DNA of 64,000 nucleotides from an uncultured Dysgonomonas sp. (lineage in GTDB: Bacteria; Bacteroidota; Bacteroidia; Bacteroidales; Dysgonomonadaceae). The notes beneath the pieces were generated by a model that was not told the DNA's origin, searched no databases, and saw only the letters and a list, made by a program, of their open reading frames with translations. The position numbers were made by a program, and so were the translations under genes. Of this stretch, positions 5,142 through 29,095 are shown piece after piece. Position 1 is the stretch's first letter. The number at the start of each line of letters is the position of its first letter. Location: NCBI RefSeq assembly GCF_900079725.1, contig NZ_LT599032.1, positions 4,026,054 to 4,090,053 on the forward strand, in the 5' to 3' direction.

Positions 5142-5210
5142 AAAAAAGCCTGCTGTAATTAATTATGAAGTGAGCCCCAAAGTTTGGACAAAAAACTTTG
5201 GGGTTTATTT

Positions 5211-5732
5211 ATGAATAAAACACATTCCTTTTCCGACCGTCTCATGTATATGCATCTGCTTGAAGACGGTTACAGTATCAATTACGTAAGTACAAAGTAT
5301 GGGATCGGTTTTAAGCTCTTAACTTGTTTGTGGATTCAGTATAAGCAGCATGGTTTAGAAGCCTTACGCAAAAAGAAGAATATTTGTGCAAGTGGAGAGC
5401 TAAAGCGTACAATAGTCTCCGATATTGAAAATAATCATTTATCTTTGGTTGAAGCTTCGTTAAAATATGGAGCAAGCGACAGCCGTATATCCACTTGGCT
5501 ACGGATAGCCAGAACTGACGGTTTGAATGCGCTTGATATTACAAAAAAACGAGGCCGCGCAAAAGGTATGGGAAGACCTAAGAAGAAAGCACCTGAGACG
5601 GAACTCGAAAAGCTCCGTGAAGAGAATCTTAAGCTCAAAATAGAGAATGAGCTATTAAAAAAAGTGAAAGCCTTAGTCGAAGAAAAGGAAGCCCGTCTAC
5701 GCAAGATTGGGCGCAAGCCATCCAAGGACTAA
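5211..5732 (+). CDS. IS3-family transposase OrfA (helix-turn-helix)
   Basis: The 173-residue DNA-binding subunit contains two helix-turn-helix-like segments: DRLMYMHLLEDGYSINYVST, and later VEASLKYGASDSRISTWLR. A C-terminal leucine-zipper-like coiled coil (LEKLREENLKLKIENELLKK) follows. The ATG at 5211 is preferred over an upstream in-frame TTG at 5184, which lies inside the left-end hairpin. A run of seven A (5657-5663) in the phase A-AAA-AAA is a plausible -1 slippery site that would fuse OrfA to OrfB, whose frame is in the -1 register. Confidence 0.92.
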   Translation: MNKTHSFSDRLMYMHLLEDGYSINYVSTKYGIGFKLLTCLWIQYKQHGLEALRKKKNICASGELKRTIVSDIENNHLSLVEASLKYGASDSRISTWLRIARTDGLNALDITKKRGRAKGMGRPKKKAPETELEKLREENLKLKIENELLKKVKALVEEKEARLRKIGRKPSKD

Positions 5733-5776
5733 GGCAGAAAGGTCATGATCTTCAAACAATACTGAGGATCCATGGG

Positions 5777-6553
5777 ATGGCTCGCTCAACCTTCTATTAT
5801 CATATATCCCGTATTAACAGCACAGACAAATATGCTGATATAAGAAAACGTATAGTTGATATTTTTGAAGCTCACCACAAACGTTATGGGTATCGTCGGG
5901 TGTATATGCAGCTCCTAAATGAGGGATATTTGATTAATCATAAGACGGTGCAAAAACTTATGGCAGAAATGCATCTGAAATCAAAAGTCCGTAAGGTAAA
6001 ATATAAGTCATATAAAGGAGAAGTTGGCAGGATTGCTCCTAACGTACTTAATCGTGACTTTAAAGCTGAAAAGCCATACCGAAAATGGGCTACAGATGTT
6101 ACTGAATTTAAAATTGAGGGTAAGAAGGCATATCTTTCTCCTATTATTGATATGTTCAATGGGGAAATCATATCTTATACCATATCCGACAGTCCTGATT
6201 TAAAGATGGTTATGGATATGATAAAAAAGGCTCAAAATAAAGTGAACATAACCGGCGAACTTATTTTGCACTCAGATCAGGGATATCATTATCAACATAA
6301 GCAATATCAGATGACACTTAAAAAGAATGGAATTATACAAAGCATGTCTCGCAAAGGTAATTGTTTGGATAACGCTGTTATGGAGAATTTCTTTGGCATT
6401 ATGAAGTCTGAATTACTATATTTGAAGAAATTTAAGAGCATCAGTGAGTTTAAAAAGGAACTGACAGAATACATCGAGTATTATAATAATGAGAGAATCA
6501 AACTTAAATTAAAAGGAAAGAGCCCGGTAAAATACCGAACTCTATACACTTGA
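5777..6553 (+). CDS. IS3-family transposase OrfB (DDE integrase)
   Basis: The catalytic part of the transposase, 258 residues from the first ATG. It has an N-terminal HTH_21-type region (RYGYRRVYMQLLNEGYLINH) and an rve integrase core. The DDE residues lie in WATDVTEF, HSDQGYHY and MENFFG; the spacing between second D and E fits D-D-35-E. The frame is open well upstream of 5777 and reads AIQGLRQKGHDLQTILRIHG just before the ATG, a typical IS150 OrfB N-terminus. The functional product is therefore probably an OrfAB fusion (5211-6553) made by -1 frameshifting at 5657-5663. Confidence 0.93.
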   Translation: MARSTFYYHISRINSTDKYADIRKRIVDIFEAHHKRYGYRRVYMQLLNEGYLINHKTVQKLMAEMHLKSKVRKVKYKSYKGEVGRIAPNVLNRDFKAEKPYRKWATDVTEFKIEGKKAYLSPIIDMFNGEIISYTISDSPDLKMVMDMIKKAQNKVNITGELILHSDQGYHYQHKQYQMTLKKNGIIQSMSRKGNCLDNAVMENFFGIMKSELLYLKKFKSISEFKKELTEYIEYYNNERIKLKLKGKSPVKYRTLYT

Positions 6554-6624
6554 ATTTTTTATTAATCCGTCCAACTTTTTGGGGTCAGATCATTATGCAG
6601 GCTTTTTAAGGATTATTATTTTGT

Positions 6625-7719
6625 TTATTTAAAAACAATCTGTCGGTCTTTGATGTATTTTTCTATTGCATTTTGTAATTCTGTTTTCTTCAGTTCATCT
6701 GTTACAAGCTCATATATAGGAATAAGTTTGTCTAAATTCAAGTCTACAAGGGCAGCATTATCTTCAGTTAAAGATTGAAACCATTTGTTGATATTTAATT
6801 GTGGATATTGTTTCTGTAGATTGTAGACTCCGGATGGTATTAGGCTATTGTCACCTCCATGGTTTTCAATATAGAGGATAGGGATACCATTTAGTTTTAC
6901 ATTGTTTTCATCTGGCGGATTACCCGGCCCATTAGGCCAATAGCCAATACTCCTGAGAGTGTGTCTTATCCCATCTTCAATATACTCTTCGGTGTAGGAT
7001 ATGCCATCATATTCAGGAGTTGTATACCCCGATTTATCTATTTTAGACTTGTATATTAAATCCAGACGCATACCTTTGATATACTCGCCGATAACATGTG
7101 TACCGTATTTTTCAATGATTTTGTTTGCAGATAAAGAGGTGATATCATTCCTGAAATCGACTGTCAAATAATCAAAAAGATCGTCAGGTCTAGCATTTAA
7201 TGCGTACTTACCATTATGAAAGTAATAATGGATGCTGGCGAATGAATAATCCTTTGCATTTTTATCGTCTTTGTTATAGAGCATTTCATTGTCTAGAATA
7301 AAGCCTGAAAAAGCGTTAATATTATCGGGTATCGGATTCCAGTAGCTATCATTGGATATATTTGTAAGGTGTTTTGTATAACGCCATGCATTAGCTCCGG
7401 AAACGGTAAAATTTGAACTTTGGGTGGATTCCATTTTATCGTAACGTTCCGGTTTTTCATTTAGAAATTTATCTATATCAAGTACATTTTCTCTGACTGA
7501 AATATCGCTTGCATATGAACCAGTATAATCATAACCCTTTCCTAATAAATCTTTTTTGTTTGTAATTGGTTTTGATTTAAGGGGGGTAAATGCGTCCATC
7601 GGGTTTACTTCTTCCTGCTTTTCTTCAGGTACATCTACTGTAAAATCATCGCTATTGGAACATCCTGTGAAGGATAAGAATAGGCAACATAAGATCAGGG
7701 CATTAATTTTTTTCTTCAT
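6625..7719 (-). CDS. MACPF-domain lipoprotein (BSAP-like)
   Basis: A 364-residue lipoprotein: signal peptide with lipobox FTGC (17-20), then a low-complexity acidic stretch. The body begins LGKGYDYTGSYA (59-70), VRENVLDIDKF, as in Bacteroidales MACPF proteins, and YGTHV (205-209) followed by GEYIKGM resembles the MACPF signature (Y/W)GTH(F/Y)x6GG, although the final GG is not conserved. MACPF proteins insert into membranes as pores. Bacteroidales members include secreted antimicrobial BSAPs and surface proteins of unknown role. No immunity gene or altered receptor is evident nearby. Its 3' end faces the IS-split terminator. Confidence 0.75.
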   Translation of the reverse strand: MKKKINALILCCLFLSFTGCSNSDDFTVDVPEEKQEEVNPMDAFTPLKSKPITNKKDLLGKGYDYTGSYASDISVRENVLDIDKFLNEKPERYDKMESTQSSNFTVSGANAWRYTKHLTNISNDSYWNPIPDNINAFSGFILDNEMLYNKDDKNAKDYSFASIHYYFHNGKYALNARPDDLFDYLTVDFRNDITSLSANKIIEKYGTHVIGEYIKGMRLDLIYKSKIDKSGYTTPEYDGISYTEEYIEDGIRHTLRSIGYWPNGPGNPPDENNVKLNGIPILYIENHGGDNSLIPSGVYNLQKQYPQLNINKWFQSLTEDNAALVDLNLDKLIPIYELVTDELKKTELQNAIEKYIKDRQIVFK

Positions 7720-7772
7720 GGTCTGATTGTTTAGATTGTATCAAAGTTAAAAAATAAATTGAGAATGAAATA

Positions 7773-7803
7773 AAAAAGTCCGCACATTACTGCACGGACT
7801 TTG
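7773..7803 (-). terminator. Rho-independent terminator of pgk
   Basis: AAAAAGTCCG (7773-7782) pairs with CGGACTTTG (7795-7803). Read on the minus strand this gives a stem followed by a T6 run, placed 19-49 nt after the pgk stop codon. Confidence 0.8.
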
Positions 7804-7821
7804 TATATTGAGGTTGAAATA

Positions 7822-9084
7822 TTAATATCCTCTGATAGCTTTAATTCCCGGAAGAACTTTTCCTTCTATGAATTCAAGCAAAGCACCACCGCCAGTAGAT
7901 ACATAAGATACCTGATCGGCTAGGTTGAACTTGTTAACCGCAGCAACAGAGTCACCACCACCTACAAGGGAGAATGCTCCGGCTTTAGTTGCAGTAGCAA
8001 TTGCTTTAGCAACAGTTTCTGTACCGTGAGCGAAGTTGTCGAATTCGAATACGCCCACAGGACCATTCCAAAGGATAGTTTTAGAAGCCATGATTACATC
8101 AGTGAATTCTTTTTCACCTTTAGGGCCTATGTCGAAACCAGACCATCCGTCAGGGATATTGTCGGCATCTGTAAATTGTGTATTTGCATCGTTTGCAAAC
8201 TTGTCGCCAAGCTTGGCATCGCTGGCGATAACCAGGTTTACTCCGTTAGCCTTAGCTTTAGCCATAATGTCTTTAGCCAGTTCCAGTTTGTCGTCTTCGC
8301 AAAGAGAATTACCGATCTTGCCGCCATTCGCTTTTTCGAATGTGAAAGCCATACCACCACCGATGATAAGGTTGTTCACTTTGTCTAGCAGGTTTTCGAT
8401 GATATCTATTTTAGAAGATACTTTCGATCCACCGATGATTGCAGTGAACGGACGTGCAGTTTCTTTCATTACTTTCTCTACAGCGTCTATTTCTTTCTGC
8501 ATCAGATAACCGAACATTTTGTGTTCAGCATCGAAGTAATCCGCGATAAGCGCAGTAGAAGCATGTGCACGGTGAGCCGTTCCGAAAGCGTCATTTACAT
8601 ATACATCTGCATAAGATGCAAGTGTCTTTGTAAATTCTTTCTGGCTTTCTTTGATAGCTTTCTTTGCAGCAGCTTTTACGTCATCGCTTGCATCATCGGC
8701 CAATCCGCGAGGTTTGCCTTCTTCTTCAGCATAGAAGCGGAGGTTTTCAAGCAAAAGAGCTTCGCCCGGTTGAAGAGCAGCAGCTTTTATTCCGGCTTCT
8801 TCACCTACACAGTCGTTAGCGAATTGCACGTCAACTCCCAGAAGTTTAGATACGTGAGCAAGGATATGTTTCAGCGAATATTTTTCTTCTACACCTTTAG
8901 GACGTCCAAGGTGAGATGCAATGATCGGGCTACCACCGTCGGCTATGATTTTTTTTAGTGTAGGCATAGCTGCACGGATACGAGTGTCGTCTGTGATGTT
9001 GAAATCTGCATCTAGAGGCACATTGAAGTCAACTCTGACGAACGCTTTCTTTCCTGAAAAATTGAATTTGTCAATTGTAATCAT
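7822..9084 (-). CDS. pgk: Phosphoglycerate kinase
   Basis: Glycolytic enzyme interconverting 1,3-bisphosphoglycerate + ADP and 3-phosphoglycerate + ATP in the cytoplasm. The 420 residues match bacterial Pgk. Visible signatures are [14 protein letters not shown] near the N-terminus, the substrate loop HLGRPKG, the hinge-region [11 protein letters not shown] and the nucleotide-binding [12 protein letters not shown] near the C-terminus. It is monocistronic: its own terminator lies downstream and a TATATTTG -7 element upstream. The reading frame is intact. Confidence 0.98.
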
Positions 9085-9165
9085 GATTGTCTGTAATTAA
9101 ATATAATTAATATAATTGATTATCAGTGTATTGTTTGCTTGGATTTCCTATCCTTAAAAGCGGTA

Positions 9166-9173
9166 CAAATATA
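9166..9173 (-). promoter_or_regulatory. -7 promoter element for pgk
   Basis: The minus strand reads TATATTTG (TAnnTTTG consensus), about 80 bp before the pgk start. A long 5' leader would result. No clear -33 element. Confidence 0.45.
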
Positions 9174-9277
9174 CTAAATTCTATGGAAGATTTTTTGCTT
9201 CAAAATGAAATTATCGTGAAATTTGCCTGAATCTATATATTATGTTGTTATTTGTGAGTCAGACTTGACAAAAGTAA

Positions 9278-9285
9278 TATCTTTG
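9278..9285 (+). promoter_or_regulatory. -7 promoter element for marC
   Basis: TATCTTTG fits TAnnTTTG, and a TTTG at 9251-9254 is a possible -33 element with a slightly long 23-nt spacer. The start codon of marC lies at 9299. Confidence 0.5.
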
Positions 9286-9298
9286 CTGAAAAAAGAAT

Positions 9299-9931
9299 AT
9301 GACCGAATTGTTAGCCTACGGATTATTGGTTTTCACATCTTTCTTTACTCTTATAAACCCTATCAGCGCTATGCCTGTTTTTCTCGGGCTTACTTCCGAT
9401 ATGGAACCGAAAGACAGGGTTGCTGTGGCAAAACGGGCAGTGGTGGTTTCGCTGATTATCGTGTTGGTCTTTGCTTTTTCCGGGCAGTTTTTGTTCAGAG
9501 TATTTGGTATATCTGTCAACAGTTTCCGGATAGTAGGCGGCGCCATTTTCTTCGTTGTCGGTTTCGATATGCTTAATGCCCGGTTGTCGCCGATTAAGGC
9601 AAAGGGATCAGAGATAAAGCAGACAATCAAAGATATCGCTATTACACCACTAGCCATACCGATGCTTTGCGGCCCAGGGGCAATAACGAATGCTATCGTC
9701 TTGATGGAAGATGCGGATAGTATATTGCTAAAAGTAACTTTTGTAGTAGCACTATGTCTTATGTTGCTGGTTACTTATCTCATTCTTATCAGTTCATCAA
9801 AACTGATAAAACGGTTTGGCGAAACCGGTATCAATGTAATGATGCGTCTGATGGGACTTATAGTGATGGTAATAGCAGTTGAGTTTTTCCTGGCAGGGAT
9901 AAGGCCATTTTTAGAGAGCCTTTTCAATTAA
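9299..9931 (+). CDS. MarC family inner-membrane protein
   Basis: A 210-residue integral membrane protein with six hydrophobic segments. The N-terminal segment with FFTLINPISAMPVFLGLT and the central PLAIPMLCGPGAITNAIVL are characteristic of the MarC/UPF0056 family. The family was once linked to multiple antibiotic resistance, which was not upheld; its function is unknown. It ends inside the convergent DUF4328 gene (21-bp tail-to-tail overlap), so no terminator fits between them. Confidence 0.92.
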   Translation: MTELLAYGLLVFTSFFTLINPISAMPVFLGLTSDMEPKDRVAVAKRAVVVSLIIVLVFAFSGQFLFRVFGISVNSFRIVGGAIFFVVGFDMLNARLSPIKAKGSEIKQTIKDIAITPLAIPMLCGPGAITNAIVLMEDADSILLKVTFVVALCLMLLVTYLILISSSKLIKRFGETGINVMMRLMGLIVMVIAVEFFLAGIRPFLESLFN

Positions 9932-10597
9932 GGAGTCTTCTTTTTCTTCTGTTTCGAAAAGAAGCTTTTCTGCTTTATTATAATCTTCAATAATTATAAT
10001 AGTGATTATACAGAGTGTGGTTTCTATTGCTGAATTTATTACTGACAGGAATAAATTGGAACCGGTGTCAATGGATGAAAAACTCCATTCGATTCTGAAT
10101 GATATGCTTCCGAATATGAGGCTGAATATCCATATTGTCCACCATCCTTTAACATAATCTGTTTTCAGCCGTTCTGTATATGGCTCCTTACTATTGAACA
10201 AAAGATACTGGTCTGTTTTTATATATAGTTCTTTCATAATCCTGTATGGAACAAACAGATTTATGATTGGAATAAACCAAGCTCCGGCTGCCCATCCATT
10301 AGAATATTCGAGTTTATTCATCTTCTTTTCAAGATTGTAATAAGCTCTTCTGAACCACTGAATGAATGTTATAGCCGATGCTATTACCGCCAGAAATGTC
10401 AATATCGCTGTATAGCCCTCAACTGATGCTATTATAAAAAAAGTGTTTTCAGAAATGTATTCTTTGGGTATAATTTCATAACTAACCATTAATTGGATAA
10501 TCTCCAAAATAAGTGTTATTGCGCATGTTATCATTACAATCCATATTAAAGCGATGGCGTTTTTTGCTCTTTGGGAGTTAGACCTTAATTCATCCAT
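9911..10597 (-). CDS. DUF4328 domain membrane protein
   Basis: A 228-residue membrane protein. The DUF4328 signature NGWAAGAWFIPIINLFVPYRIMKELY lies about residues 99-124, preceded by FRRAYYNLEK. Five or six hydrophobic segments are predicted (near residues 14-38, 50-80, 104-120, 150-172, 180-202). The C-terminus is acidic. Function unknown. It converges on and overlaps marC. Confidence 0.82.
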   Translation of the reverse strand: MDELRSNSQRAKNAIALIWIVMITCAITLILEIIQLMVSYEIIPKEYISENTFFIIASVEGYTAILTFLAVIASAITFIQWFRRAYYNLEKKMNKLEYSNGWAAGAWFIPIINLFVPYRIMKELYIKTDQYLLFNSKEPYTERLKTDYVKGWWTIWIFSLIFGSISFRIEWSFSSIDTGSNLFLSVINSAIETTLCIITIIIIEDYNKAEKLLFETEEKEDSLIEKAL

Positions 10598-10754
10598 ATG
10601 TGTATTTCTTATATTAGATTTGATTATGACATAAAACTATAAAAATAAGTGATATAATGCATACACTATACTCTATTTAATTTATCGGCTTAAATACTTC
10701 GTTCCGCTTAATTTTTTTTAACTCCGAATTATCGGTTTTCAGATTTAACATTTC

Positions 10755-10762
10755 TATTTTTG
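10755..10762 (+). promoter_or_regulatory. -7 promoter element for the bat operon
   Basis: TATTTTTG matches TAnnTTTG, 118 bp before the moxR start. The long leader and the lack of a clear -33 TTTG make this tentative. Confidence 0.4.
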
Positions 10763-10879
10763 TCGTGCTTAGTAAAATAGGAGTGATATGCCCGTAAAAT
10801 ATCGGGGGCTAATCTGAGTTTACTAATTATAATTGAGGAAAATCAAACAATAAATATAAACGCAAAATAGTATAACAGT

Positions 10880-11872
10880 ATGGCGCAAGTTGACATTCGA
10901 GAACTTACCGAAAGGATACAGAGTAAAAGCTCATTTGTAGAATCTCTCACAATGGGTATGGATAAAGTGATTGTGGGACAAAAACATCTCGTAGAATCAC
11001 TTTTGATAGGTCTTTTAGCTGATGGGCATATCCTGCTTGAAGGGGTGCCGGGTTTGGCAAAGACTCTGGCAATAAAATCTTTGGCTTCGCTCATCGATGC
11101 TAAGTATAGTCGTATACAGTTTACTCCCGACCTATTGCCTGCCGATGTTATCGGAACAATGATCTACAGCCAGAAAAACGAAGAGTTCTTCGTAAAACAC
11201 GGACCTGTATTTTCAAATTTTGTATTGGCAGATGAAATAAACCGTGCTCCTGCCAAAGTACAGAGTGCATTACTCGAAGCCATGCAGGAACGCCAGGTGA
11301 CAATTGGAGAAAAGACATATAAATTACCGTCCCCATTCCTGGTAATGGCAACTCAGAACCCTATTGAGCAGGAAGGTACTTATCCGCTTCCGGAAGCACA
11401 GGTAGACCGTTTCATGCTGAAAGTAGTGATAAATTACCCGAAGAAAGAAGAGGAAAAATTAATCCTGAGAAACAACCTGACAGGAGACTATGGTAAATTA
11501 ACTCCGGTAATGAAAGCGGATGAAATCATTGGAGCCCGCGAAGTAGTGAAAGATGTTTATCTGGACGAAAAGATAGAGAAATATATTGTCGATATTGTAT
11601 TTGCTACACGTTTCCCTGAGGAAAACGGATTGACATCGCTAAAAGGAATGATCGGTTTCGGAGCATCACCGCGTGCATCTATCAGTCTGGCTTTGGCTTC
11701 GCGTGCATATGCATTTATCAAACGCAGAGGTTACGTTATCCCTGAGGATATTCGTGCAGTATGCCACGACGTATTGCGCCACCGTATCGGACTGACATAT
11801 GAAGCGGAAGCTAATAATACGAACTCCGATGAGATTATTAGCGAAATTTTGAATAAAATCGAAGTGCCTTGA
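10880..11872 (+). CDS. MoxR-family AAA+ ATPase, first gene of the bat operon
   Basis: A 330-residue AAA+ chaperone-like ATPase. Walker A GVPGLAKT (55-62), Walker B LADEINR (116-122), and sensor-1 region FLVMATQNPIEQEGTYPLPEAQ are intact. MoxR proteins are thought to help VWA-domain partners fold or acquire metal ions. The partners here are presumably the DUF58 protein, BatA and BatB encoded downstream. The stop codon at 11870-11872 abuts a repeat-framed module that separates it from the DUF58 gene; without it the genes would be only 4 nt apart. Confidence 0.95.
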   Translation: MAQVDIRELTERIQSKSSFVESLTMGMDKVIVGQKHLVESLLIGLLADGHILLEGVPGLAKTLAIKSLASLIDAKYSRIQFTPDLLPADVIGTMIYSQKNEEFFVKHGPVFSNFVLADEINRAPAKVQSALLEAMQERQVTIGEKTYKLPSPFLVMATQNPIEQEGTYPLPEAQVDRFMLKVVINYPKKEEEKLILRNNLTGDYGKLTPVMKADEIIGAREVVKDVYLDEKIEKYIVDIVFATRFPEENGLTSLKGMIGFGASPRASISLALASRAYAFIKRRGYVIPEDIRAVCHDVLRHRIGLTYEAEANNTNSDEIISEILNKIEVP

Positions 11873-12315
11873 TCAGTAAATAGTTGACAGTAAACAGTAA
11901 TCAGTACAAAGATGATTCAAAAAGATAGTATAGTTTATGAGAAGGCTTATTCATTTGCAATAAAAATTGTAGGATTGCATAAATCCTTAAACGGAAAGAA
12001 TGAATATATCTTGTCGAAACAAATACTTAGATGCGGAACATCTGGTGCAAATATTGCTGAAGCTAATGGTGCAATATCGCATGCCGATTTTTCGGCAAAA
12101 ATGAGTATTGCATACAAAGAAGTGCTGGAAACTAAATACTGGTAATCCTTACTTAAGGATACTAATTACTTGGAATTTGATACTTTCACAGAGATATATA
12201 AAGATGTGGATGAAATCGCAAGAATATTATTTTCGATACTAAAAACAACCAGAATAAAGTGACGGAAAATATAGTGTACGATACTGTTTACTGTTTACTG
12301 TTTACTGTTTACTGA
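11873..12315. mobile_element. Candidate 443-bp module: inverted heptamer repeats framing a four-helix-bundle gene
   Basis: The left block 11873-11907 (begins TCAGTAAA, contains CAGTAAACAGTA, ends CAGTAC) is inverted relative to the right block 12276-12315 (begins GTAC, four tandem ACTGTTT heptamers at 12283-12310, ends TTTACTGA). The outermost 8 bp are perfect inverted repeats. The module begins at the base after the moxR stop and ends 4 nt before the DUF58 start, as if inserted in a tight operon junction. Mobility is an inference; no target duplication is apparent. Confidence 0.55.
11912..12262 (+). pseudogene. Four-helix-bundle (S23/IVP-type) protein gene with one nonsense codon
   Basis: The frame from ATG 11912 to TGA 12262 is exactly 117 codons, with a single in-frame TAA at 12143-12145. 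The first part reads FAIKIVGLHKSL, LSKQILRCGTSGANIAEANGA and SIAYKEVLETKYW. After the stop, the same frame continues SLLKDTNYLEFDTF and ILFSILKTTR, exactly as in full-length four-helix-bundle proteins, which have YWLSLLKDT with Leu where the stop is; one TTA-to-TAA change explains it. The family is best known from ORFs in 23S rRNA intervening sequences and is related to the bAvd protein of diversity-generating retroelements. The 77-residue truncated product would lack its last helix. Confidence 0.85.
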
Positions 12316-12319
12316 ATTT

Positions 12320-13189
12320 ATGGAAACAAGCGAATTATTAAAAAAAGTACGTCAGATTGAAATAAAGACCCGTGGTTTGTCCCGCAATATATTTGCAGGA
12401 CAATACCATTCAGCTTTTAAAGGCAGGGGGATGGCTTTTTCAGAGGTACGTGAATACCAGTATGGAGATGATATCCGTGACATAGACTGGAATGTGACGG
12501 CCCGCTACAACAAACCTTTTATTAAGGTATTTGAAGAGGAGCGGGAACTGACGGTTATGCTTCTTGTGGATGTGTCTGCCAGTCAGGATTTCGGAACAAG
12601 GGATTCACTAAAGCGCGATATGGTTACGGAAATTGCAGCAACTCTCGCATTTTCTGCCATACAGAACAATGATAAAATCGGGGTGATTTTCTTTTCCGAC
12701 AAGATAGAAAAATTCATTCCTCCCAAGAAGGGGAAGAAGCATATACTATATATTATCCGGGAGTTGATAAACTTTCAGGCAGACAGTGCTAAAACCGATG
12801 TGGGAATGGCTCTTAAATATCTGACGAATGTTATCAAAAAACGCTGCACAACATTTATGATATCCGACTTTATAGATATACAGGATTATAATAATGCCCT
12901 GACTATAGCCAATCGTAAACACGACATAGTTGCTTTGCAGGTTTATGATAATCTCGAAACCCAACTTCCGAGTGTGGGGCTTATGAAAGTAATGGATGCA
13001 GAGACCGGGACAGAACGTTGGGTGGATACTTCGTCCAAGAGAGTACGTCAGGTATATCAGGACTGGTGGAAAAAGCAGCAGGAGAATATGCAGACGTCGT
13101 TTAACCGGAGTAAAGTAGATAATGTATCAGTGCGTACTGATGAGGATTATGTAAAGGCATTAATGGCCTTGTTTAAGAAGAGAAGCTAA
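12320..13189 (+). CDS. DUF58 domain protein of the bat operon
   Basis: A 289-residue DUF58 protein without signal peptide. The family hallmark GRGMAFSEVREYQYGDDIRDIDWNVTAR spans about residues 35-63, followed by a VWA-like fold with LLVDVSASQDFGT (metal-site DxSxS, around 85-97) and FMISDFID later. Such proteins always travel with MoxR and VWA genes and are presumed clients or adaptors of the MoxR ATPase. It is the second functional gene of the bat operon. A 78-nt gap with short AT-rich repeats separates it from the next gene. Confidence 0.93.
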   Translation: METSELLKKVRQIEIKTRGLSRNIFAGQYHSAFKGRGMAFSEVREYQYGDDIRDIDWNVTARYNKPFIKVFEEERELTVMLLVDVSASQDFGTRDSLKRDMVTEIAATLAFSAIQNNDKIGVIFFSDKIEKFIPPKKGKKHILYIIRELINFQADSAKTDVGMALKYLTNVIKKRCTTFMISDFIDIQDYNNALTIANRKHDIVALQVYDNLETQLPSVGLMKVMDAETGTERWVDTSSKRVRQVYQDWWKKQQENMQTSFNRSKVDNVSVRTDEDYVKALMALFKKRS

Positions 13190-13194
13190 CAGAA

Positions 13195-13262
13195 TTTACT
13201 AATGAGTCAATTTGCCAATAAAAGAATTGGCATATCGGCACATTAAAAAATTGGCACATTAT
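13195..13262 (+). repeat. Short repeats in the bat operon (TTGGCACATTA type)
   Basis: The gap between the DUF58 gene and the next gene holds degenerate copies of an 11-mer: ATTGGCATATC, CGGCACATTAA and ATTGGCACATT, plus an inverted TTTGCCAAT. They lengthen an otherwise short operon junction. Confidence 0.5.
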
Positions 13263-13267
13263 AACAT

Positions 13268-14326: not shown

Positions 14327-14330
14327 AGAT

Positions 14331-15323: not shown

Positions 15324-15327
15324 AAAG

Positions 15328-15420: not shown

Positions 15421-15429
15421 ATAAGAAAT

Positions 15430-16452: not shown

Positions 16453-16489
16453 AGTGAATCTGTATTTAAATCCGGGTGTTACTTTCTTT

Positions 16490-18518: not shown

Positions 18519-18580
18519 TAAAGTTATTATTTTTGTATTCTGAATAAATATAGACCTAACGAAAAAGAGTAAATAGAGTA

Positions 18581-20416: not shown

Positions 20417-20422
20417 GGTCTG

Positions 20423-21247: not shown

Positions 21248-21273
21248 TCCCTTAAAACCTGAAAAACACATAG

Positions 21274-21969
21274 ATGAGTCTTGTAGAAAAAATATTGCCA
21301 TATGAGCGTAACCTGTTTCTGTGGCTGAATGATCACCATACTGACTATTGGGACACATTTATGTGGATATATAGTGGTAAACTTATCTGGTTACCTTTGG
21401 CTATTACCGGCCTTGTAGTATTTGTATATAAGATAAAATGGAAAGAGGCTCTTTTGTTATTGCTCTGTGCTACATTAGTTGGACTTCTTTGTGACTTTGT
21501 CTCGGCAAATCTTATCAAGCCCTATTTTGAGCGATTGCGACCTACACATCATCCCGATTTTGAGGCCTTTGTGGAAGTAGTAAAAGGATATCGCGGAGGA
21601 CGTTACGGGTTTATTTCCAATCATGCGGCCAACGGCTTTGGAGTCGTGGCTTTCACATCCCTGCTATTCCGCTATAGATATCTCACTCTTACGATGATAT
21701 TATGGGCTGCAACAACGGCATATTCACGTATTTATCTGGGCGTTCATTTTATCTCTGATGTTGTCGGAGGGGCTATTTGGGGCACTTTAATAGGCTTTTT
21801 GGTGTATTATATATATTTAACCTCTCGCCGGTATATTCTGAAAGTTCCTAAAGAGGAGGTTAGAATGCCAGTCTATAGCAAAGAAAGAGCAAAGATATTA
21901 GTCGGCGCAATATTACTTACGGTAGTATCAATTGCTATATATAGTGCAATATTTGATATTCCTTCATAA
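21274..21969 (+). CDS. PAP2-family membrane phosphatase
   Basis: A 231-residue membrane phosphatase of the type-2 phosphatidic acid phosphatase family, active on lipid pyrophosphates such as undecaprenyl diphosphate or on phosphatidyl phosphates, on the periplasmic face. The three motifs are present: C1 KPYFERLRP, C2 SNHAANGFG (SNH in place of the usual PSGH), and C3 SRIYLGVHFISD, giving the catalytic histidines. About six hydrophobic segments are predicted. The exact substrate cannot be decided from sequence. It follows batE on the same strand. Confidence 0.9.
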   Translation: MSLVEKILPYERNLFLWLNDHHTDYWDTFMWIYSGKLIWLPLAITGLVVFVYKIKWKEALLLLLCATLVGLLCDFVSANLIKPYFERLRPTHHPDFEAFVEVVKGYRGGRYGFISNHAANGFGVVAFTSLLFRYRYLTLTMILWAATTAYSRIYLGVHFISDVVGGAIWGTLIGFLVYYIYLTSRRYILKVPKEEVRMPVYSKERAKILVGAILLTVVSIAIYSAIFDIPS

Positions 21970-22047
21970 AATCCATTGTTTTTCAAAAAAGAATTTTATA
22001 ACTTTAGAACATATTCCTAATCATTTACCATTTAAAACTTAGAGAGT

Positions 22048-22302
22048 ATGACTAGAGTTATTACATTTTCAGAGCTTCGCAAAATCAAGGATAGTTTACC
22101 GGATGGAAGCATACATCAGATAGCTGATACTTTACAAATTCCTGTAGAAACAGTCTGGAACTACTTCGGAGGATACAGTTACGAAAAAGGGCAAAGTTGT
22201 GGAGTACATATAGAACCCGGGCCGGACGGAGGTTATGTTTCACTCGATGATACTACTATTTTGGATATGGCTTTAGAAATGATGGAAGCGAAGGAAGCTT
22301 AA
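22048..22302 (+). CDS. Small DNA-binding-like protein, Bacteroidales-conserved
   Basis: An 84-residue cytoplasmic protein. IHQIADTLQIPVETVWNYFGG (about 26-46) resembles a helix-turn-helix (HQIADTL, turn, VETVWNYF), and HIEPGPDGGYVSLDDTTILDMAL follows. I recall similar small DNA-binding-like proteins in Bacteroidales, but there is no proven function. It has its own terminator just downstream. It could be a small transcriptional regulator; nothing in the sequence shows a target. Confidence 0.7.
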   Translation: MTRVITFSELRKIKDSLPDGSIHQIADTLQIPVETVWNYFGGYSYEKGQSCGVHIEPGPDGGYVSLDDTTILDMALEMMEAKEA

Positions 22303-22312
22303 GAAAAAATAC

Positions 22313-22345
22313 AGAGATGAATGCCAAAAGTGTTCATCTCTTTTA
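22313..22345 (+). terminator. Rho-independent terminator after the small DNA-binding-like gene
   Basis: AGAGATGAA (22313-22321) pairs with TTCATCTCT (22333-22341) and a TTTT run follows. Confidence 0.8.
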
Positions 22346-22378
22346 AAATAAGTACAACAACAATAAATATATACAGCA

Positions 22379-23500
22379 ATGGGAGATAAACTGGTAACAC
22401 TTGCGATTCACACAAACGAAAAAGCCCAGATATTGAAAGGCGTACTGGAAAGTGAGAATATTGAAGTCCATATCAATGATGTGGATTTGGATAATCCGGG
22501 AGTATCGCCCGGCGTTCGTATCCGTATCAAAGAATCCGATCTGCCCAAAGCCCTGAGTGTAGTGGAGAGCCGACACCTATTTAGCTACGATGAGGAAGAA
22601 ACATATAGGACTGATGACGGGCGTAAACGCATTCTTATACCAGTCGATTTTTCCGATTACTCACTTAAAGCATGCAAAATAGCCTTTAATCTGGCTCGTG
22701 ATCTCAACGCGAAAGTAAAGATACTTCATGTATATTTCAATCCATACTATCCCACAGCCTTGCCCATGGCCGAAGCATTTGCCTATCAGGGAAAGGAAGA
22801 GAAGGAATTCCAGAATATTATAGAGAAAGTAAAGGAAAATATCCAGAAATTATGTAATACGATAGACCAAAAGGTTTCGGAAGGAGAATTTCCTTCTGTA
22901 AACTATTCCTATGTATTACGTGAGGGTTTGCCGGAGGAAGAAATAGTGACCTTTACCAAGGAGTATAAACCGACACTGATAATTATGGGGACCAGAGGTA
23001 AGGATCAGAAAGATGCCGATCTCATCGGTAGCGTAACTGCTGAGGTAATAGAAATGACTCACGTTCCATTAGTTGCCATTCCGGAAAATACACCTTTTGC
23101 CGATTTGAGGGAAGTGAAGAAGATGGCATTTCTTACAAACTTCAGCCAGAGGGACTTGATCTCATTCGATTTGCTGGCAAAACTCTTACAACCATATAGC
23201 GATGTACAGATCGTACTTACCCATATAGCCGTAAAGAAGGGTGACCGATGGGACGAAATAAAACTTGCAGGAATCAAAGACTATTTCAGTAAGCAATATC
23301 CGGGGTTAAACCTCGACTATAAGTTGATCGACACCAATGATATGCTCAAGAGTCTGGACGAATATATAAAGAATGACAAAATACAGATATTATCTCTGAC
23401 CACCAGTAAGCGGAATATCTTTGCCCGTATGTTTAGTCCGAGTATCTCGCGTAAGATGCTGTTTCACTCCGATACACCTTTGTTGGTACTAAGAGGATAA
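22379..23500 (+). CDS. Universal stress protein with N-terminal DUF2007-like domain and two Usp domains
   Basis: A 373-residue cytoplasmic protein. Residues 1-70 (VTLAIHTNEKAQILKGVLESENIEVHINDVD...) look like a DUF2007 putative signal-transducing domain. A Usp domain follows (about 78-228), opening RILIPVDFSDYS and ending in the ATP-binding type motif MGTRGKDQKDADLIGSVTAEV. The second Usp domain (about 235-373) is degenerate and lacks a clear G-2x-G-9x-G motif. Usp proteins respond to starvation and stress, often by nucleotide binding. The N-terminal fusion is the notable feature. It is monocistronic, with a strong hairpin terminator downstream. Confidence 0.85.
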   Translation: MGDKLVTLAIHTNEKAQILKGVLESENIEVHINDVDLDNPGVSPGVRIRIKESDLPKALSVVESRHLFSYDEEETYRTDDGRKRILIPVDFSDYSLKACKIAFNLARDLNAKVKILHVYFNPYYPTALPMAEAFAYQGKEEKEFQNIIEKVKENIQKLCNTIDQKVSEGEFPSVNYSYVLREGLPEEEIVTFTKEYKPTLIIMGTRGKDQKDADLIGSVTAEVIEMTHVPLVAIPENTPFADLREVKKMAFLTNFSQRDLISFDLLAKLLQPYSDVQIVLTHIAVKKGDRWDEIKLAGIKDYFSKQYPGLNLDYKLIDTNDMLKSLDEYIKNDKIQILSLTTSKRNIFARMFSPSISRKMLFHSDTPLLVLRG

Positions 23501-23529
23501 AATGCTAGACATATCATATAATATCGTAT

Positions 23530-23569
23530 AAATCTATTCGTTATCTTTGAAGTTAACGAATAGATTTTA
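23530..23569 (+). terminator. Hairpin terminator after the usp gene
   Basis: AAATCTATTCGTTA (23530-23543) pairs with TAACGAATAGATTT (23554-23567), followed by TTA. The loop overlaps TATCTTTG (23542-23549), which could also serve as the -7 element of the next gene. Confidence 0.7.
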
Positions 23570-23662
23570 CACTTAATACCTAGCCTTATAAAATGATACA
23601 TCTACTTATCCCCTATGATTACGTTCCACACGGATTTTTTTCTCAGTAAATAAACCTCCTTT

Positions 23663-24535
23663 ATGAGACTATCGGCTTTCTTAGTCTGCATACTATCTTT
23701 GTGTTCGGTAAAAGCTTCTGTATATAGTGCCGATTCTGTTCCGGATGTAATACCTAAAGGTGCAATTTCTTTCCATAGTTTCAAGAATAATATCATTCTG
23801 GATGGTTTTGTTAACGACTCCATACCGATGAAAGCTCTTCTCGATATAGGGGCATGGGGATTGGCTGTGCCCGAATATTTAAGAGCAGATAAAGTAGCCG
23901 GGAAAAAATCTGAGCGCATTCGTTTCAATGTGGGTGACTGGACAAAGACTATGGATGTTATATTTATGAGCCCGGGTAGCCAGTTCCTGCATTGGTATGG
24001 TGAGGATTGCGTATTGCTGGGCTGGGATTTTTTCAACAGGCGCATACTCGAGATATCCTATAAAGACCAATATATAAGGGAACTGAAACCTATTGAACTG
24101 GATAGCCTGAAAGGGTATGACTGTATAAAATTTCAGAACCGCGGGCGCAGGCTGCTTATTCCTGCTAGAGTAACCATTGGAGGAAAGATCATAGAAGGGA
24201 ACTGCTGGATAGATACAGGCCTGAACGGAACGTTGTTCTTTGCTCACAACGTACTATCCAAATACGGTCTGGATATAGGCAAAACCAAAGAAGGGCGGGC
24301 TAAGAATCTGGACAGCGATCGTACGAAAGTAAATATAATGAAGGCAGACACTATCAGCGTGGGTAATAGTATACTTACAGGTAAAGATGTGATTTTTACT
24401 AATTCCGAATGGTTTGTCTTCAAAGAGAATGATATGTATATTGGTCTTTTGGGGAATCAGTTTTTCAAATATTTTTCGGTGATATTCGATTTTCGAGAAA
24501 ATAACCTATACCTTAAATCTTCAGCTTCCGATTGA
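23663..24535 (+). CDS. Retropepsin-like aspartic protease, exported
   Basis: A 290-residue protein with a signal peptide (MRLSAFLVCILSLCSVKA). Two aspartyl-protease half motifs are seen: ALLDIGAWGLAVPEY (D of DIGA about residue 56) and CWIDTGLNGTLFFAH (DTGL about residue 183), each followed by the hydrophobic strand typical of the pepsin/retropepsin fold. This makes it a single-chain two-lobe protease, though the first motif is DIGA rather than DTG/DSG. It is probably periplasmic. No linked substrate is evident; the downstream gap is repeat-filled. Confidence 0.72.
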   Translation: MRLSAFLVCILSLCSVKASVYSADSVPDVIPKGAISFHSFKNNIILDGFVNDSIPMKALLDIGAWGLAVPEYLRADKVAGKKSERIRFNVGDWTKTMDVIFMSPGSQFLHWYGEDCVLLGWDFFNRRILEISYKDQYIRELKPIELDSLKGYDCIKFQNRGRRLLIPARVTIGGKIIEGNCWIDTGLNGTLFFAHNVLSKYGLDIGKTKEGRAKNLDSDRTKVNIMKADTISVGNSILTGKDVIFTNSEWFVFKENDMYIGLLGNQFFKYFSVIFDFRENNLYLKSSASD

Positions 24536-24585
24536 TGGTAAATCTGATAATATACAAAAGGTAATACGGAAAGCAATTGATAATT

Positions 24586-24915
24586 AAGAATGAAAAATTA
24601 ATAATTAGCTTTTATCAATCAGCGGAGACCCATGACTTACTATCTAAAACTCTTTATTTGCTAAAAAGGTAACAAAGGTAACAGATATATCAGTTAACAG
24701 TAAACAGTCATCAGTGAACAACTCGTATCTCGTATCTCGTCTACTTGTACCTCTTACTTATTACTTAAAACTTACTACTTGTTAAAAGGTAACAAAGGTT
24801 ACACTTTTTCATTCATTTGCTAATATGCTAATTCTCAAATCTGCGAATCAATACATCAAAGAACTCAAGGCTAATAACCTTCAATCATCAGCCTACTACT
24901 TATAGATAAAGTTTG
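24586..24915. repeat. Intergenic repeat island 3 (inverted partner of island 2)
   Basis: The 475-nt gap between the retropepsin and DinB genes contains no gene. It begins with an AATTAAGAATGAAAAATTAA run. The core 24664-24804 is the reverse complement of 16565-16705, the same length with 5 mismatches, and is bounded by AAAAGGTAACAAAGGTAAC-type motifs. TATAGATAAAGTTT near 24902 matches the module that begins the other islands. The two copies face each other across the 8-kb batC-to-retropepsin segment. Confidence 0.9.
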
Positions 24916-25010
24916 CGAAAAGTCTTTATCTTAATTAAAAGCAAATCATTACATCAAACTCCAAAAAAACAGTAATTTTACAGTTACTTAAAAAATAATC
25001 ATTAATCGTA

Positions 25011-25496
25011 ATGGAAACATCACCAAATACAGATTTCTCAATTGTCATTGATGGTATCAGCCAGGTAATACGAGAGTGGGAGAATAAGCTGTTAAATCTT
25101 CCTGCAGAAGCGATATCTGAGAGACGGAATGTCCAAAACAGAACAATAAAGCAACTGATAGGACACCTGATAGATTCAGCGTCTAACAATCAGCAGAGAA
25201 TGGTGCGTTTACAATACAATTCCGAACTGGTATTTCCCGATTATACACAGGACAATGATCTATGGATAGCTATACAGAACTATCAGGAATCCGACTGGGT
25301 AGGATTGGTTAATCTGTGGAAATACTATAATTTGCATATCATTCAGGTTATAAAGAATGTAGATAGATCTAAGTTGGGAAATATATGGACCGATTTTGAA
25401 GGCAATGTGGTAACATTGGAAGATATGATTAACGGCTATCTCGGGCATTTACACTTACATATGGGTGAGATAGAAGAGCTAGCCGACAAGAAATAG
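25011..25496 (+). CDS. DinB-family protein
   Basis: A 161-residue protein with the four-helix DinB/YfiT-like fold. Metal-binding-type histidines are at LIGHLIDSASNNQQR (about residues 46-60) and in the C-terminal GYLGHLHLHMGEIEEL. These positions match the three-histidine metal site of the superfamily. Members include thiol-dependent transferases and stress-induced proteins, so the activity here is unknown. The DPP III gene starts 25 nt downstream and is probably cotranscribed. Confidence 0.82.
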   Translation: METSPNTDFSIVIDGISQVIREWENKLLNLPAEAISERRNVQNRTIKQLIGHLIDSASNNQQRMVRLQYNSELVFPDYTQDNDLWIAIQNYQESDWVGLVNLWKYYNLHIIQVIKNVDRSKLGNIWTDFEGNVVTLEDMINGYLGHLHLHMGEIEELADKK

Positions 25497-25521
25497 ATAA
25501 GAATTTAAATTATATAATTAA

Positions 25522-27594
25522 ATGAAGAAAACAATATTAATAACTATGACCGGATTATCAATGATGCTTGCCGGATGCGGAGGGGGGCAAAAAGCTCCGG
25601 AGAAGCAGGCTGAAGCAGACACTGTCCCTGCTGATTTCAAATATGAGGTAGATGCCTTTGCCGACCTCGAAATCCTGCGTTATTATGTTCCCGGATTCAA
25701 TAATCTGACTTTGGAGCAAAAAGAATTGGTTTATTATCTCTCTATGGCAGCTGTCGAAGGACGGGATATTCTTTTCGACCAGAATAATCGGTACAACCTC
25801 GCCATTCGCCGCACGCTGGAGGCTATCTATGGAAATTACAAAGGAGATAAGAATTCGGTTGATTACAAGGAGTTTGAAGTATATCTCAAGCGTGTGTGGT
25901 TCTCCAATGGGATACACCATCACTACGGCGAGGAAAAATTCTTGCCAGGCTTCTCTAAAGAATTTTTTGCGGAGCAGGTAAAAAACTTACCGGCGGAACT
26001 TGTACCGGTAAAGGAAGGTCAGTCTGTAGATGATTTTATAAAGATGCTTACCCCTGTCATGTTCGATGCCAAGGTAATGGCAAAGAAAGTGAACCAGTCG
26101 GGAGGAGACCTTATTCTCACTTCTGCCAATAATTATTATGGAGAAGGAGTTACCCAAAAAGAAGTTCAGGACTTTTACGGGGCAATGAAAGATACGACCG
26201 ACCTTACGCCTATATCTTACGGGCTAAATAGCCGTTTGGTAAAACAAGACGGGAAACTGATCGAAAAGGTTTGGAAAGTAGGAGGCTTGTATTCGCCTGC
26301 AATTGAGAAAATTGTTTTCTGGCTCGAAAAAGCGCAGGCTGTAGCCGAGAATGACGCGCAGAAGAATGTGATCTCTAAACTTATATCATATTATAAGTCC
26401 GGTGATTTGAATACGTTCGATCAATATGCGGTGGCATGGGTTGAAGATTTAAATTCTCAGGTCGATTTTGTAAATGGTTTCACAGAAGTTTATGGAGATG
26501 CTCTTGGTATTAAAGCCAGTTGGGAATCTATTGTAAATTTCAAAAATGTAGAGGCGACAAAACGCACCGAGATCATCAGTTCAAACGCGCAATGGTTCGA
26601 GGATCATTCGCCTGTGGACAAGAGCTTCAAAAAGGAGAAAGTAAAAGGTGTTTCGGCCAAAGTAATCACCGTTGCGCAACTTGGTGGAGACTGCTATCCT
26701 GCAACGCCTATCGGCATTAATCTGCCGAATGCGGACTGGATACGTAAAGATCACGGTTCAAAATCGGTGACTATAGAGAATATAATGGAAGCATACGACG
26801 CTGCAGGTGCGCATACCGGATTCGGTAAAGAGTTTATGTGGTCGGATGTTGAAGTGAATTCTATAAAAGAATATGGCTTCATTACCGATGTGTTGCATAC
26901 CGACCTCCACGAATGCCTGGGACATGGTTCGGGGAAATTACTCCCTGAGGTTGACCCTAATGCATTGGGTGAATTTAGTTCTACCATCGAAGAAGCCCGT
27001 GCCGACCTGTTCGGACTGTACTTCCTTGCCGATGCCAAACTTGTAGAACTGGGGATTATCCCAAATGCGGATGCATACAAGGCTGAATACTATAAGTTTA
27101 TGATGAATGGACTGATGACGCAACTTGTGCGTATCGAACCCGGTAAAGACATCGAAGAGGCACATATGCGCAACCGTCAATTGATAGCCAAATGGGTTTA
27201 TGAAAAAGGAAAAGCGGATAATGTAGTCGAATATAAGGTAAGAGATGGCAAAACATATGTTGTAGTAAACGATTATGCCAAACTGCGTACATTATTTGGC
27301 GATTTACTTGCCGAAATACAGCGCATCAAATCGGAAGGTGATTTCAATGGAGCAAAAGCTATTGTAGCGAATTATGCGGTAAAAGTTGATCAAAAATTGC
27401 ATAAAGAGGTGCTGGAGCGTTACAAGACTTTGAATATGAAACCATACAAAGGATTTGTTAATCCGGTATTCCAATTGGTACAAGATAAAGATGGTAAGAT
27501 TACCGACGTGAAAATCTCTTATACCGAAGGATATGCCGAACAGATGCTACGCTATTCGAAAGAGTTTTCGACATTACCTACCTATAACGATTGA
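25522..27594 (+). CDS. Dipeptidyl-peptidase III family (M49) lipoprotein
   Basis: A 690-residue zinc peptidase of family M49, removing dipeptides from the N-terminus of short peptides. Signal peptide with lipobox LAGC (about residues 16-19), so it is probably membrane-anchored. The zinc motif is HECLGH (463-468), with the second glutamate motif EEARAD at 490-495, the pair expected for DPP III; the bacterial HEXXGH spacing is pentapeptide-type rather than the longer eukaryotic form. Length and motif positions fit Bacteroidales DPP III. Its 3' end faces a terminator that has been split by IS copy 2. Confidence 0.93.
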   Translation: MKKTILITMTGLSMMLAGCGGGQKAPEKQAEADTVPADFKYEVDAFADLEILRYYVPGFNNLTLEQKELVYYLSMAAVEGRDILFDQNNRYNLAIRRTLEAIYGNYKGDKNSVDYKEFEVYLKRVWFSNGIHHHYGEEKFLPGFSKEFFAEQVKNLPAELVPVKEGQSVDDFIKMLTPVMFDAKVMAKKVNQSGGDLILTSANNYYGEGVTQKEVQDFYGAMKDTTDLTPISYGLNSRLVKQDGKLIEKVWKVGGLYSPAIEKIVFWLEKAQAVAENDAQKNVISKLISYYKSGDLNTFDQYAVAWVEDLNSQVDFVNGFTEVYGDALGIKASWESIVNFKNVEATKRTEIISSNAQWFEDHSPVDKSFKKEKVKGVSAKVITVAQLGGDCYPATPIGINLPNADWIRKDHGSKSVTIENIMEAYDAAGAHTGFGKEFMWSDVEVNSIKEYGFITDVLHTDLHECLGHGSGKLLPEVDPNALGEFSSTIEEARADLFGLYFLADAKLVELGIIPNADAYKAEYYKFMMNGLMTQLVRIEPGKDIEEAHMRNRQLIAKWVYEKGKADNVVEYKVRDGKTYVVVNDYAKLRTLFGDLLAEIQRIKSEGDFNGAKAIVANYAVKVDQKLHKEVLERYKTLNMKPYKGFVNPVFQLVQDKDGKITDVKISYTEGYAEQMLRYSKEFSTLPTYND

Positions 27595-27681
27595 ATCGGA
27601 ATCCGGAATTAAGGAAATAAATATAAAAAAGTCCTGACAAGTTGATCTGACCCCAAAAAGTTGGACGGATTAATAAAAAAT

Positions 27682-28458
27682 TCAAGTGTATAGAGTTCGG
27701 TATTTTACCGGGCTCTTTCCTTTTAATTTAAGTTTGATTCTCTCATTATTATAATACTCGATGTATTCTGTCAGTTCCTTTTTAAACTCACTGATGCTCT
27801 TAAATTTCTTCAAATATAGTAATTCAGACTTCATAATGCCAAAGAAATTCTCCATAACAGCGTTATCCAAACAATTACCTTTGCGAGACATGCTTTGTAT
27901 AATTCCATTCTTTTTAAGTGTCATCTGATATTGCTTATGTTGATAATGATATCCCTGATCTGAGTGCAAAATAAGTTCGCCGGTTATGTTCACTTTATTT
28001 TGAGCCTTTTTTATCATATCCATAACCATCTTTAAATCAGGACTGTCGGATATGGTATAAGATATGATTTCCCCATTGAACATATCAATAATAGGAGAAA
28101 GATATGCCTTCTTACCCTCAATTTTAAATTCAGTAACATCTGTAGCCCATTTTCGGTATGGCTTTTCAGCTTTAAAGTCACGATTAAGTACGTTAGGAGC
28201 AATCCTGCCAACTTCTCCTTTATATGACTTATATTTTACCTTACGGACTTTTGATTTCAGATGCATTTCTGCCATAAGTTTTTGCACCGTCTTATGATTA
28301 ATCAAATATCCCTCATTTAGGAGCTGCATATACACCCGACGATACCCATAACGTTTGTGGTGAGCTTCAAAAATATCAACTATACGTTTTCTTATATCAG
28401 CATATTTGTCTGTGCTGTTAATACGGGATATATGATAATAGAAGGTTGAGCGAGCCAT
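27682..28458 (-). CDS. IS3-family transposase OrfB (copy 2)
   Basis: The 258-residue protein is identical to OrfB of copy 1, with the same DDE motifs (WATDVTEF, HSDQG, MENFFG) and the HTH_21-type N-terminal region. As in copy 1, the -1 frame is open upstream of the ATG, so the working transposase is probably an OrfAB fusion. Identity to copy 1 suggests that both are intact and recently active. Confidence 0.93.
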   Translation of the reverse strand: MARSTFYYHISRINSTDKYADIRKRIVDIFEAHHKRYGYRRVYMQLLNEGYLINHKTVQKLMAEMHLKSKVRKVKYKSYKGEVGRIAPNVLNRDFKAEKPYRKWATDVTEFKIEGKKAYLSPIIDMFNGEIISYTISDSPDLKMVMDMIKKAQNKVNITGELILHSDQGYHYQHKQYQMTLKKNGIIQSMSRKGNCLDNAVMENFFGIMKSELLYLKKFKSISEFKKELTEYIEYYNNERIKLKLKGKSPVKYRTLYT

Positions 28459-28502
28459 CCCATGGATCCTCAGTATTGTTTGAAGATCATGACCTTTCTG
28501 CC

Positions 28503-29024
28503 TTAGTCCTTGGATGGCTTGCGCCCAATCTTGCGTAGACGGGCTTCCTTTTCTTCGACTAAGGCTTTCACTTTTTTTAATAGCTCATTCTCTATTTTGA
28601 GCTTAAGATTCTCTTCACGGAGCTTTTCGAGTTCCGTCTCAGGTGCTTTCTTCTTAGGTCTTCCCATACCTTTTGCGCGGCCTCGTTTTTTTGTAATATC
28701 AAGCGCATTCAAACCGTCAGTTCTGGCTATCCGTAGCCAAGTGGATATACGGCTGTCGCTTGCTCCATATTTTAACGAAGCTTCAACCAAAGATAAATGA
28801 TTATTTTCAATATCGGAGACTATTGTACGCTTTAGCTCTCCACTTGCACAAATATTCTTCTTTTTGCGTAAGGCTTCTAAACCATGCTGCTTATACTGAA
28901 TCCACAAACAAGTTAAGAGCTTAAAACCGATCCCATACTTTGTACTTACGTAATTGATACTGTAACCGTCTTCAAGCAGATGCATATACATGAGACGGTC
29001 GGAAAAGGAATGTGTTTTATTCAT
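28503..29024 (-). CDS. IS3-family transposase OrfA (copy 2)
   Basis: 173 residues, identical to OrfA of copy 1, with the same preferred ATG (an in-frame TTG lies 27 bp upstream in the terminal hairpin). It contains the helix-turn-helix segments, C-terminal coiled coil and the A7 slippery run before the frame change. Confidence 0.92.
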   Translation of the reverse strand: MNKTHSFSDRLMYMHLLEDGYSINYVSTKYGIGFKLLTCLWIQYKQHGLEALRKKKNICASGELKRTIVSDIENNHLSLVEASLKYGASDSRISTWLRIARTDGLNALDITKKRGRAKGMGRPKKKAPETELEKLREENLKLKIENELLKKVKALVEEKEARLRKIGRKPSKD

Positions 29025-29095
29025 AAATAAACCCCAAAGTTTTTTGTCCAAACTTTGGGGCTCACTTCAAAGTTTATCTGTCAGGATTTTTTGTA

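Follow-up and report, generated by a model that had tools for sequence, protein, structure and literature searches.

Why should two copies of one insertion sequence (IS), in a single stretch of DNA, both come to lie inside transcription terminators? The stretch analysed here, referred to as the window, is 64,000 nucleotides of contig NZ_LT599032.1 from an uncultured Dysgonomonas sp. (positions 4,026,054 to 4,090,053 of the forward strand). It carries two mutually identical copies, each 1427 bp long, of an IS150-type element of the IS3 family. A sequence-only reading had placed both copies in the loops of rho-independent terminators and had proposed structure-guided targeting that spares genes. 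We found that the targeting preference is real. The target is an intrinsic terminator in the home genome and a palindrome resembling repetitive extragenic palindromic (REP) elements in some genomes of a Bacillus order. The insertions lie in loops, with 3–5-bp duplications at most sites; the hairpins stand empty in other genomes of the genus; the sites share no consensus; and many relatives behave alike. We therefore consider it likely that this is an IS3-family, IS150-subgroup element whose transposase prefers the loops of hairpin-forming DNA. Such behaviour is of a known kind, and the variant is new.

Both copies, the hairpin arms around them and the target duplications TTA and AAGT were found exactly where the sequence-only reading had put them, and the features of the two loci are as follows.

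5142..5153, plus strand: 5′ arm of the terminator hairpin that copy 1 interrupts, including an A-run
5163..5165, plus strand: target duplication TTA left of copy 1
5166..6592, plus strand: IS copy 1, IS3 family, IS150-type, 1427 bp
5168..5210, plus strand: left terminal inverted repeat of copy 1, inside a terminator-like 18-bp hairpin with a T-rich stretch behind it, directly before OrfA
5211..5732, plus strand: OrfA of copy 1, with the Pfam domain HTH_28, counted from its ATG (the listing of open reading frames starts it at TTG 5184)
5651..6553, plus strand: OrfB frame of copy 1 (ATG at 5777), DD(35)E integrase core
5657..5664, plus strand: A7G run, candidate frameshift site at which the OrfB frame (−1) overlaps OrfA; frameshifting would be expected from IS3-family biology
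6569..6592, plus strand: right terminal inverted repeat of copy 1
6593..6595, plus strand: target duplication TTA right of copy 1
6597..6607, plus strand: 3′ arm of the terminator hairpin that copy 1 interrupts, with its T-run
27632..27639, plus strand: one arm of the terminator hairpin that copy 2 interrupts
27639..27642, plus strand: target duplication AAGT left of copy 2
27643..29069, minus strand: IS copy 2, identical to copy 1
27682..28584, minus strand: OrfB frame of copy 2, limits transferred from copy 1
28503..29024, minus strand: OrfA of copy 2, limits transferred from copy 1
29025..29067, minus strand: left-end hairpin of copy 2, position transferred from copy 1
29070..29073, plus strand: target duplication AAGT right of copy 2
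29079..29086, plus strand: second arm of the hairpin that copy 2 interrupts, then T6

To rejoin each site, the IS and one 3–4-bp duplication were taken out and the remaining sequence was folded. The rejoined sites of copies 1 and 2 gave −16.2 and −17.8 kcal/mol (z −3.8 and −4.8), and none of 200 shuffles was as stable. The whole genome holds five copies of the 1427-bp element, and because all are 100% identical, recent movement is suggested. Rejoining restored a terminator hairpin at all five. The three copies outside the window yielded AAAGAGCCTGAATC-loop-GATTCAGGCTCTTTT with duplication CAGA (L001), GAAAGCCGGAT-loop-ATCCGGCTTTTA with GCA (L004) and AAATAAAGCCCGGTA-loop-TACCGGGCTTTATTT with CTT (L005). 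The five sites differ in arm and loop sequence, and each has a 3–4-bp duplication and keeps both arms. We scored sites by the best stem enclosing the target and called a T/A run separately. All five home sites score at least 13.4 with a T/A run, a level reached in the window by 89/6507 intergenic and 17/12,158 sampled positions; by our own arithmetic, with the copies taken as independent, the chance for the three copies outside the window is about 3e-6.

Other details of the sequence-only reading held in part. Simple open reading frame calls place convergent genes around four of the five copies, L004 being unclear. The stem core CCTG..CAGG, proposed as common to both hairpins, occurs at three of the five home copies and is missing from the other two; as a target signal it was rejected, there being no consensus over 51 sites either. 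Insertion at the junction of loop and 3′ arm describes four of the five home copies (at the 3′ arm or no more than 1 nt away) and was rejected as a general rule: of 96 in-loop sites in the wider sample described below, 41 lie nearer the 5′ arm, 31 nearer the 3′ arm and 24 are central.

Does the hairpin belong to the target or to the element? A joined query for the copy 2 site, searched in 25 genomes of the genus, matched across the junction in four other genomes (G006, 89%; G013, 75%; G011, 74%; G003, 68%). All four have an uninterrupted hairpin at the empty site, with different arm sequences in G003 and G013. The palindrome is thus not part of the element.

We then compared all copies in the genome and in relatives with random intergenic positions, as the sequence-only reading had proposed. 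Relatives were found by OrfB scans, in one of which the best 80 of 419 confirmed places were used, and the loci come from Bacteroidota, Fibrobacter and Bacilli. In the discovery set, 158 loci with a match (160 matches) gave 70 distinct sites with both ends and both flanks. Of these, 67 were kept, including our own five, the relatives having 54–76% OrfB identity. Probable palindromic contigs, with long perfect or near-perfect inverted repeats as flanks, were dropped (L057, L059 and L267), as was L103 for its Ns. Because a first scoring, which allowed loops of up to 20, overlooked hairpins with longer loops, another took its place ahead of the held-out test. The discovery sites were enriched, 35/67 lying above the 95th percentile of intergenic controls (area under the curve (AUC) 0.85) and 30/67 having both a hairpin and a T/A run, vs 45/1578 intergenic and 18/1965 random positions.

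The held-out threshold (score 12.1, T/A at least 5) was fixed before 94 further loci were scored. Six of these repeated known sites and 19 failed, leaving 69 sites with 48–61% identity. By score alone 28/69 passed, vs 138/2105 intergenic controls (AUC 0.79), and with the T/A run 22/69 vs 120/2105 (Fisher 7e-11); the single Treponema site did not pass. A stricter subset, which omits L215 and L217 (seen earlier), L321–L326 (from discovery-search genomes) and L267 (artefact), gave 22/60 by score and 17/60 with the T/A run. This score threshold is the sole held-out test, as the fold-based measure and the repeat class used below were devised after the later loci had been seen. Seven phage records also carry a relative and stand outside the site counts.

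To locate the insertions within their hairpins, we folded 80 nt around each target and asked whether the target makes contact with the apical loop of a stem with at least 8 pairs. It does so at 5/5 own, 39/62 discovery and 52/68 later sites, vs 328/1677 intergenic and 465/2111 random control positions. The 135 sites (our own five plus relatives) comprise 52 terminator-like sites, 7 strong hairpins in which no T/A run was called, 24 repeat sites and 52 that are neither. At the terminator-like sites the target touches the loop in 49/52 cases, vs 105/341 control positions in such hairpins (P = 4e-19), the 341 being those that fell within terminator-like hairpins among 7985 intergenic positions drawn. 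Structure-guided targeting therefore stands as a preference, although not as a rule, given the 52/135 sites outside every class. T-runs, which the sequence-only reading had expected at the rebuilt hairpins, accompany all five home sites and are not required elsewhere, the 24 repeat sites having T/A counts of only 2–4. One copy (L031) is found some 10 nt upstream of a terminator-like hairpin and not in its loop, and the right flank of L030, whose left flank is missing, is similar.

The repeat sites belong to the order of Bacillus sp. CECT 9360 (G507), where in several genomes the elements enter a dispersed palindrome, GAGCCTCCTC..GGGGTCTC, at its middle. All 24 insertions of this class have the target between the palindrome arms (for example, L289–L299 and L302–L308). 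Copies matching the exact pattern number 69 in G922, 62 in G786, 27 in G768, 25 in G1005, 13 in G507, 12 in G756 and 10 in G931. The window's genome has none, and the reversed pattern was absent from each genome searched. The inner stem is variable and, by eye, apparently compensated. No Rfam match (E 0.1) was found on the palindrome in eight loci with an uninterrupted copy (L331–L338). Identity with the Rfam family Bacillaceae-1 was rejected, as two such matches (16 loci) adjoin insertion sites and are not at them; at L252 and L292 a Bacillaceae-1 RNA gene lies near the insertion site. Relatives of a terminator user are therefore users of a REP-like palindrome, as is known of other IS3 elements (PMC1525189).

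What, then, is recognised? Over 51 clade sites we found no base consensus, and flank information reached at most 0.37 bit per position, with A-rich left and T-rich right flanks. Loops at the 52 terminator-like sites range from 3 to 30 nt, 30 being the limit allowed. As no base consensus emerged, DNA structure is probably what the transposase reads: with variable arms, such a range of loops and palindromes that lack T-runs, structure is the simplest common factor.

The element's family membership is clear. OrfB is an IS3-family transposase (NF033516, 319 bits, cut-off 160) with the catalytic triad D107, D167 and E203 at DD35E spacing. Its frame is open from 5651 in the −1 frame and overlaps OrfA, which ends at 5732, with A7G at 5657 as a candidate site of frameshifting. 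The copies begin with TGAAGTGAGCCCC... and end with ...GGGGTCAGATCA, that is, with TG..CA terminal repeats, and duplicate 3–4 bp of target, within the 3–5 bp expected of the family. Over the 135 sites the duplication is 3 bp at 74, 4 bp at 28, 5 bp at 4 and absent at 29. In the OrfB tree, IS150, ISKpn8 and the window element fall under one node (0.987) vs 9 outgroup sequences (and L081), which places the element in the IS150 subgroup; the tree was rooted at its midpoint, and the outgroup is not monophyletic.

Escherichia coli IS150 and Klebsiella ISKpn8 are nested inside the clade, and both they and the Enterococcus element ISEnfa3 share 56–58% OrfB identity and the same type of ends with the window element. 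Twenty-one IS150/ISKpn8 loci left 15 sites after removal of L234 and L237, which lack ends, and of four repeated sites. Unlike those of the window element, these sites show no enrichment in strong hairpins (1/15 by score, 3/15 by fold; no more than controls). The single ISEnfa3 site examined has a short hairpin (score 8.4). By eye, many IS150/ISKpn8 targets are surrounded by GCCCC..GAGGC; many lie at paralogous hok-type loci and so are not independent. These elements recur beside type I toxin–antitoxin loci, namely hokA, hokB, mokC, plasmid hok and ibs (L214, L216, L220, L221, L223, L227–L232 and L235–L238).

As an outgroup we took distant IS3 elements from related genomes (24–36% identity; 13/50 loci usable, 3/50 belonging to the clade). 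Their sites are not above chance, with 0/13 by score (AUC 0.46) and 3/13 by fold. One distant element, in G003 (ends TGTCCCGTCCTAAAATAGG, 1341 bp), lies beside a terminator-like hairpin and outside its loop at 5/5 listed copies (L183, L206, L207, L208 and L209), at most about 12 nt from the folded stem and with a 3-bp duplication in 4/5. This is a second, different terminator association.

Selection alone could in principle produce such a pattern if insertion occurred anywhere and the survivors were copies between convergent genes beside terminators. The convergent genes around 4/5 own copies fit this account, as does the G003 element, for which the surroundings of terminators may be a refuge or a target. 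The main argument to the contrary is the position within the hairpin: insertion beside a hairpin should be equally harmless, yet loop contact occurs at 49/52 terminator-like sites vs 105/341 controls. Moreover, distant IS3 elements face that selection too, and they occupy loops no more than chance predicts (3/13). We regard selection alone as very improbable.

Two other accounts accept targeting and place the signal elsewhere. A dimeric transposase might read a loose symmetric sequence in ordinary double-stranded DNA, made up of an A-run, a GC-rich half site, a spacer, the complementary half site and a T-run. The A-rich left and T-rich right flanks are what this would leave, and GCCCC..GAGGC at the E. 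coli IS150 sites, many of them at paralogous loci, points the same way. Set against these, the low information content at every position, the 3–30-nt loops and the use of T-poor palindromes make a sequence signal unlikely. The target might instead be the termination event, with a paused polymerase or an RNA hairpin exposing the site. Although 52/135 targets look like intrinsic terminators, the 24 repeat sites need no termination, nor do the 7 strong hairpins that lack a called T/A run. In intrinsic termination the polymerase stops at the U-tract, and the IS lies upstream of it, in the DNA that encodes the loop. We consider this account quite improbable.

Several observations weigh against a preference for hairpin loops as the explanation. 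Fifty-two of the 135 sites fall into no strict class, some having weak or long-loop hairpins by eye. IS150 and ISKpn8, despite their place inside the clade, show no enrichment, and a mostly-Prevotella subgroup with weak left-end hairpins (6–8) has mostly weak targets. Sites within one genome are separate events, but the genomes are related, and the P values ignore this kinship; the counts leave out copies that lacked two usable ends or flanks (59/160 discovery matches and 19/94 later loci).

If loop preference is correct, OrfAB, acting with a circular IS intermediate, would capture a palindrome extruded as a cruciform or as a single-stranded hairpin. The IS ends would be joined 3–4 bp apart in the loop, so that both arms survive, one on each side. 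The element's own left end may be relevant here. In the window element an 18-bp hairpin (−24 kcal/mol), with TTTATTT behind it, has the left terminal repeat as one of its arms. A left-end hairpin scoring at least 14 was found in 104/135 elements, 92 of the 104 with a T-run, whereas for windows inside the IS the 99th percentile is 11.8 and the maximum 17.5. Unlike the window element, E. coli IS150 has a weak left-end hairpin (8.4), and the outgroups score 5.6–11.1. The left-end hairpin may take over from the terminator that the IS interrupts: with its Ts, it would stop transcription from the left, so that the IS brings a substitute with it, and it would also shield the transposase genes from read-through.

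The strength of the left end goes only loosely with that of the target (Spearman 0.34, uncorrected for kinship), as is also indicated by the G922 elements, which have the weakest left end (5) and yet use palindromes. The Prevotella-type subgroup consists of L040, L043, L047, L049, L063, L069 and L075, and several of its targets carry GGGACA/TGTCCC motifs. A tentative extension, possible but on balance doubtful, is that one transposase would read hairpin DNA in two places, the left end of its own element and the target. Transposition would then be a terminator swap that does little harm; it would have been maintained from Bacteroidota to Bacilli and, in some branches, have weakened along with the left-end hairpin.

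Target choice in the large IS3 family is commonly regarded as mostly loose, and a few members are REP-specific. Among these, ISPsy8 of Pseudomonas syringae makes a 3-bp duplication and, at 5/5 copies, has entered the hairpin predicted for a REP on its axis of symmetry (PMC1525189). The window element resembles it in family, short duplication and hairpin target; unlike ISPsy8, which uses one repeated sequence and one base, it uses unrelated, unique terminators without a consensus. IS1397 and ISKpn1, also of the IS3 family, target intergenic palindromes, with the transposase setting specificity (PMC1525189). Their target is the REP or palindromic unit repeat family, whereas our home sites are not one repeat: no single dispersed repeat entered at a fixed base was found at the five own sites, and a dispersed repeat was found at the 24 relatives' sites. 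A title on palindromic unit-independent transposition of IS1397 in Yersinia, present as an entry in the reference list of PMC2817692, may concern other hairpins. According to PMC4923244 and PMC5678879, IS1272 and TnSha1 of the IS1182 family use hairpin targets with little sequence conservation, several of them confirmed terminators; they make no target duplication, and the stem is cut and the hairpin partly deleted or replaced. The window element shares hairpins without a sequence consensus with IS1272 and, unlike it, belongs to another family, duplicates 3–4 bp in the loop and keeps both arms at 5/5 sites. We recognised no report of terminator-loop targeting for the IS150 subgroup in a literature search that left subscription literature largely outside, and we claim no priority.

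If loop preference holds, this clade, spread across several phyla, would be a natural and testable case of structure-guided DNA transposition, and possibly a tool for tagging operon ends. The way in which such elements multiply between genes without disrupting them would then have an explanation. The findings also hint that a terminator interrupted by one of these ISs may be replaced and not simply lost.

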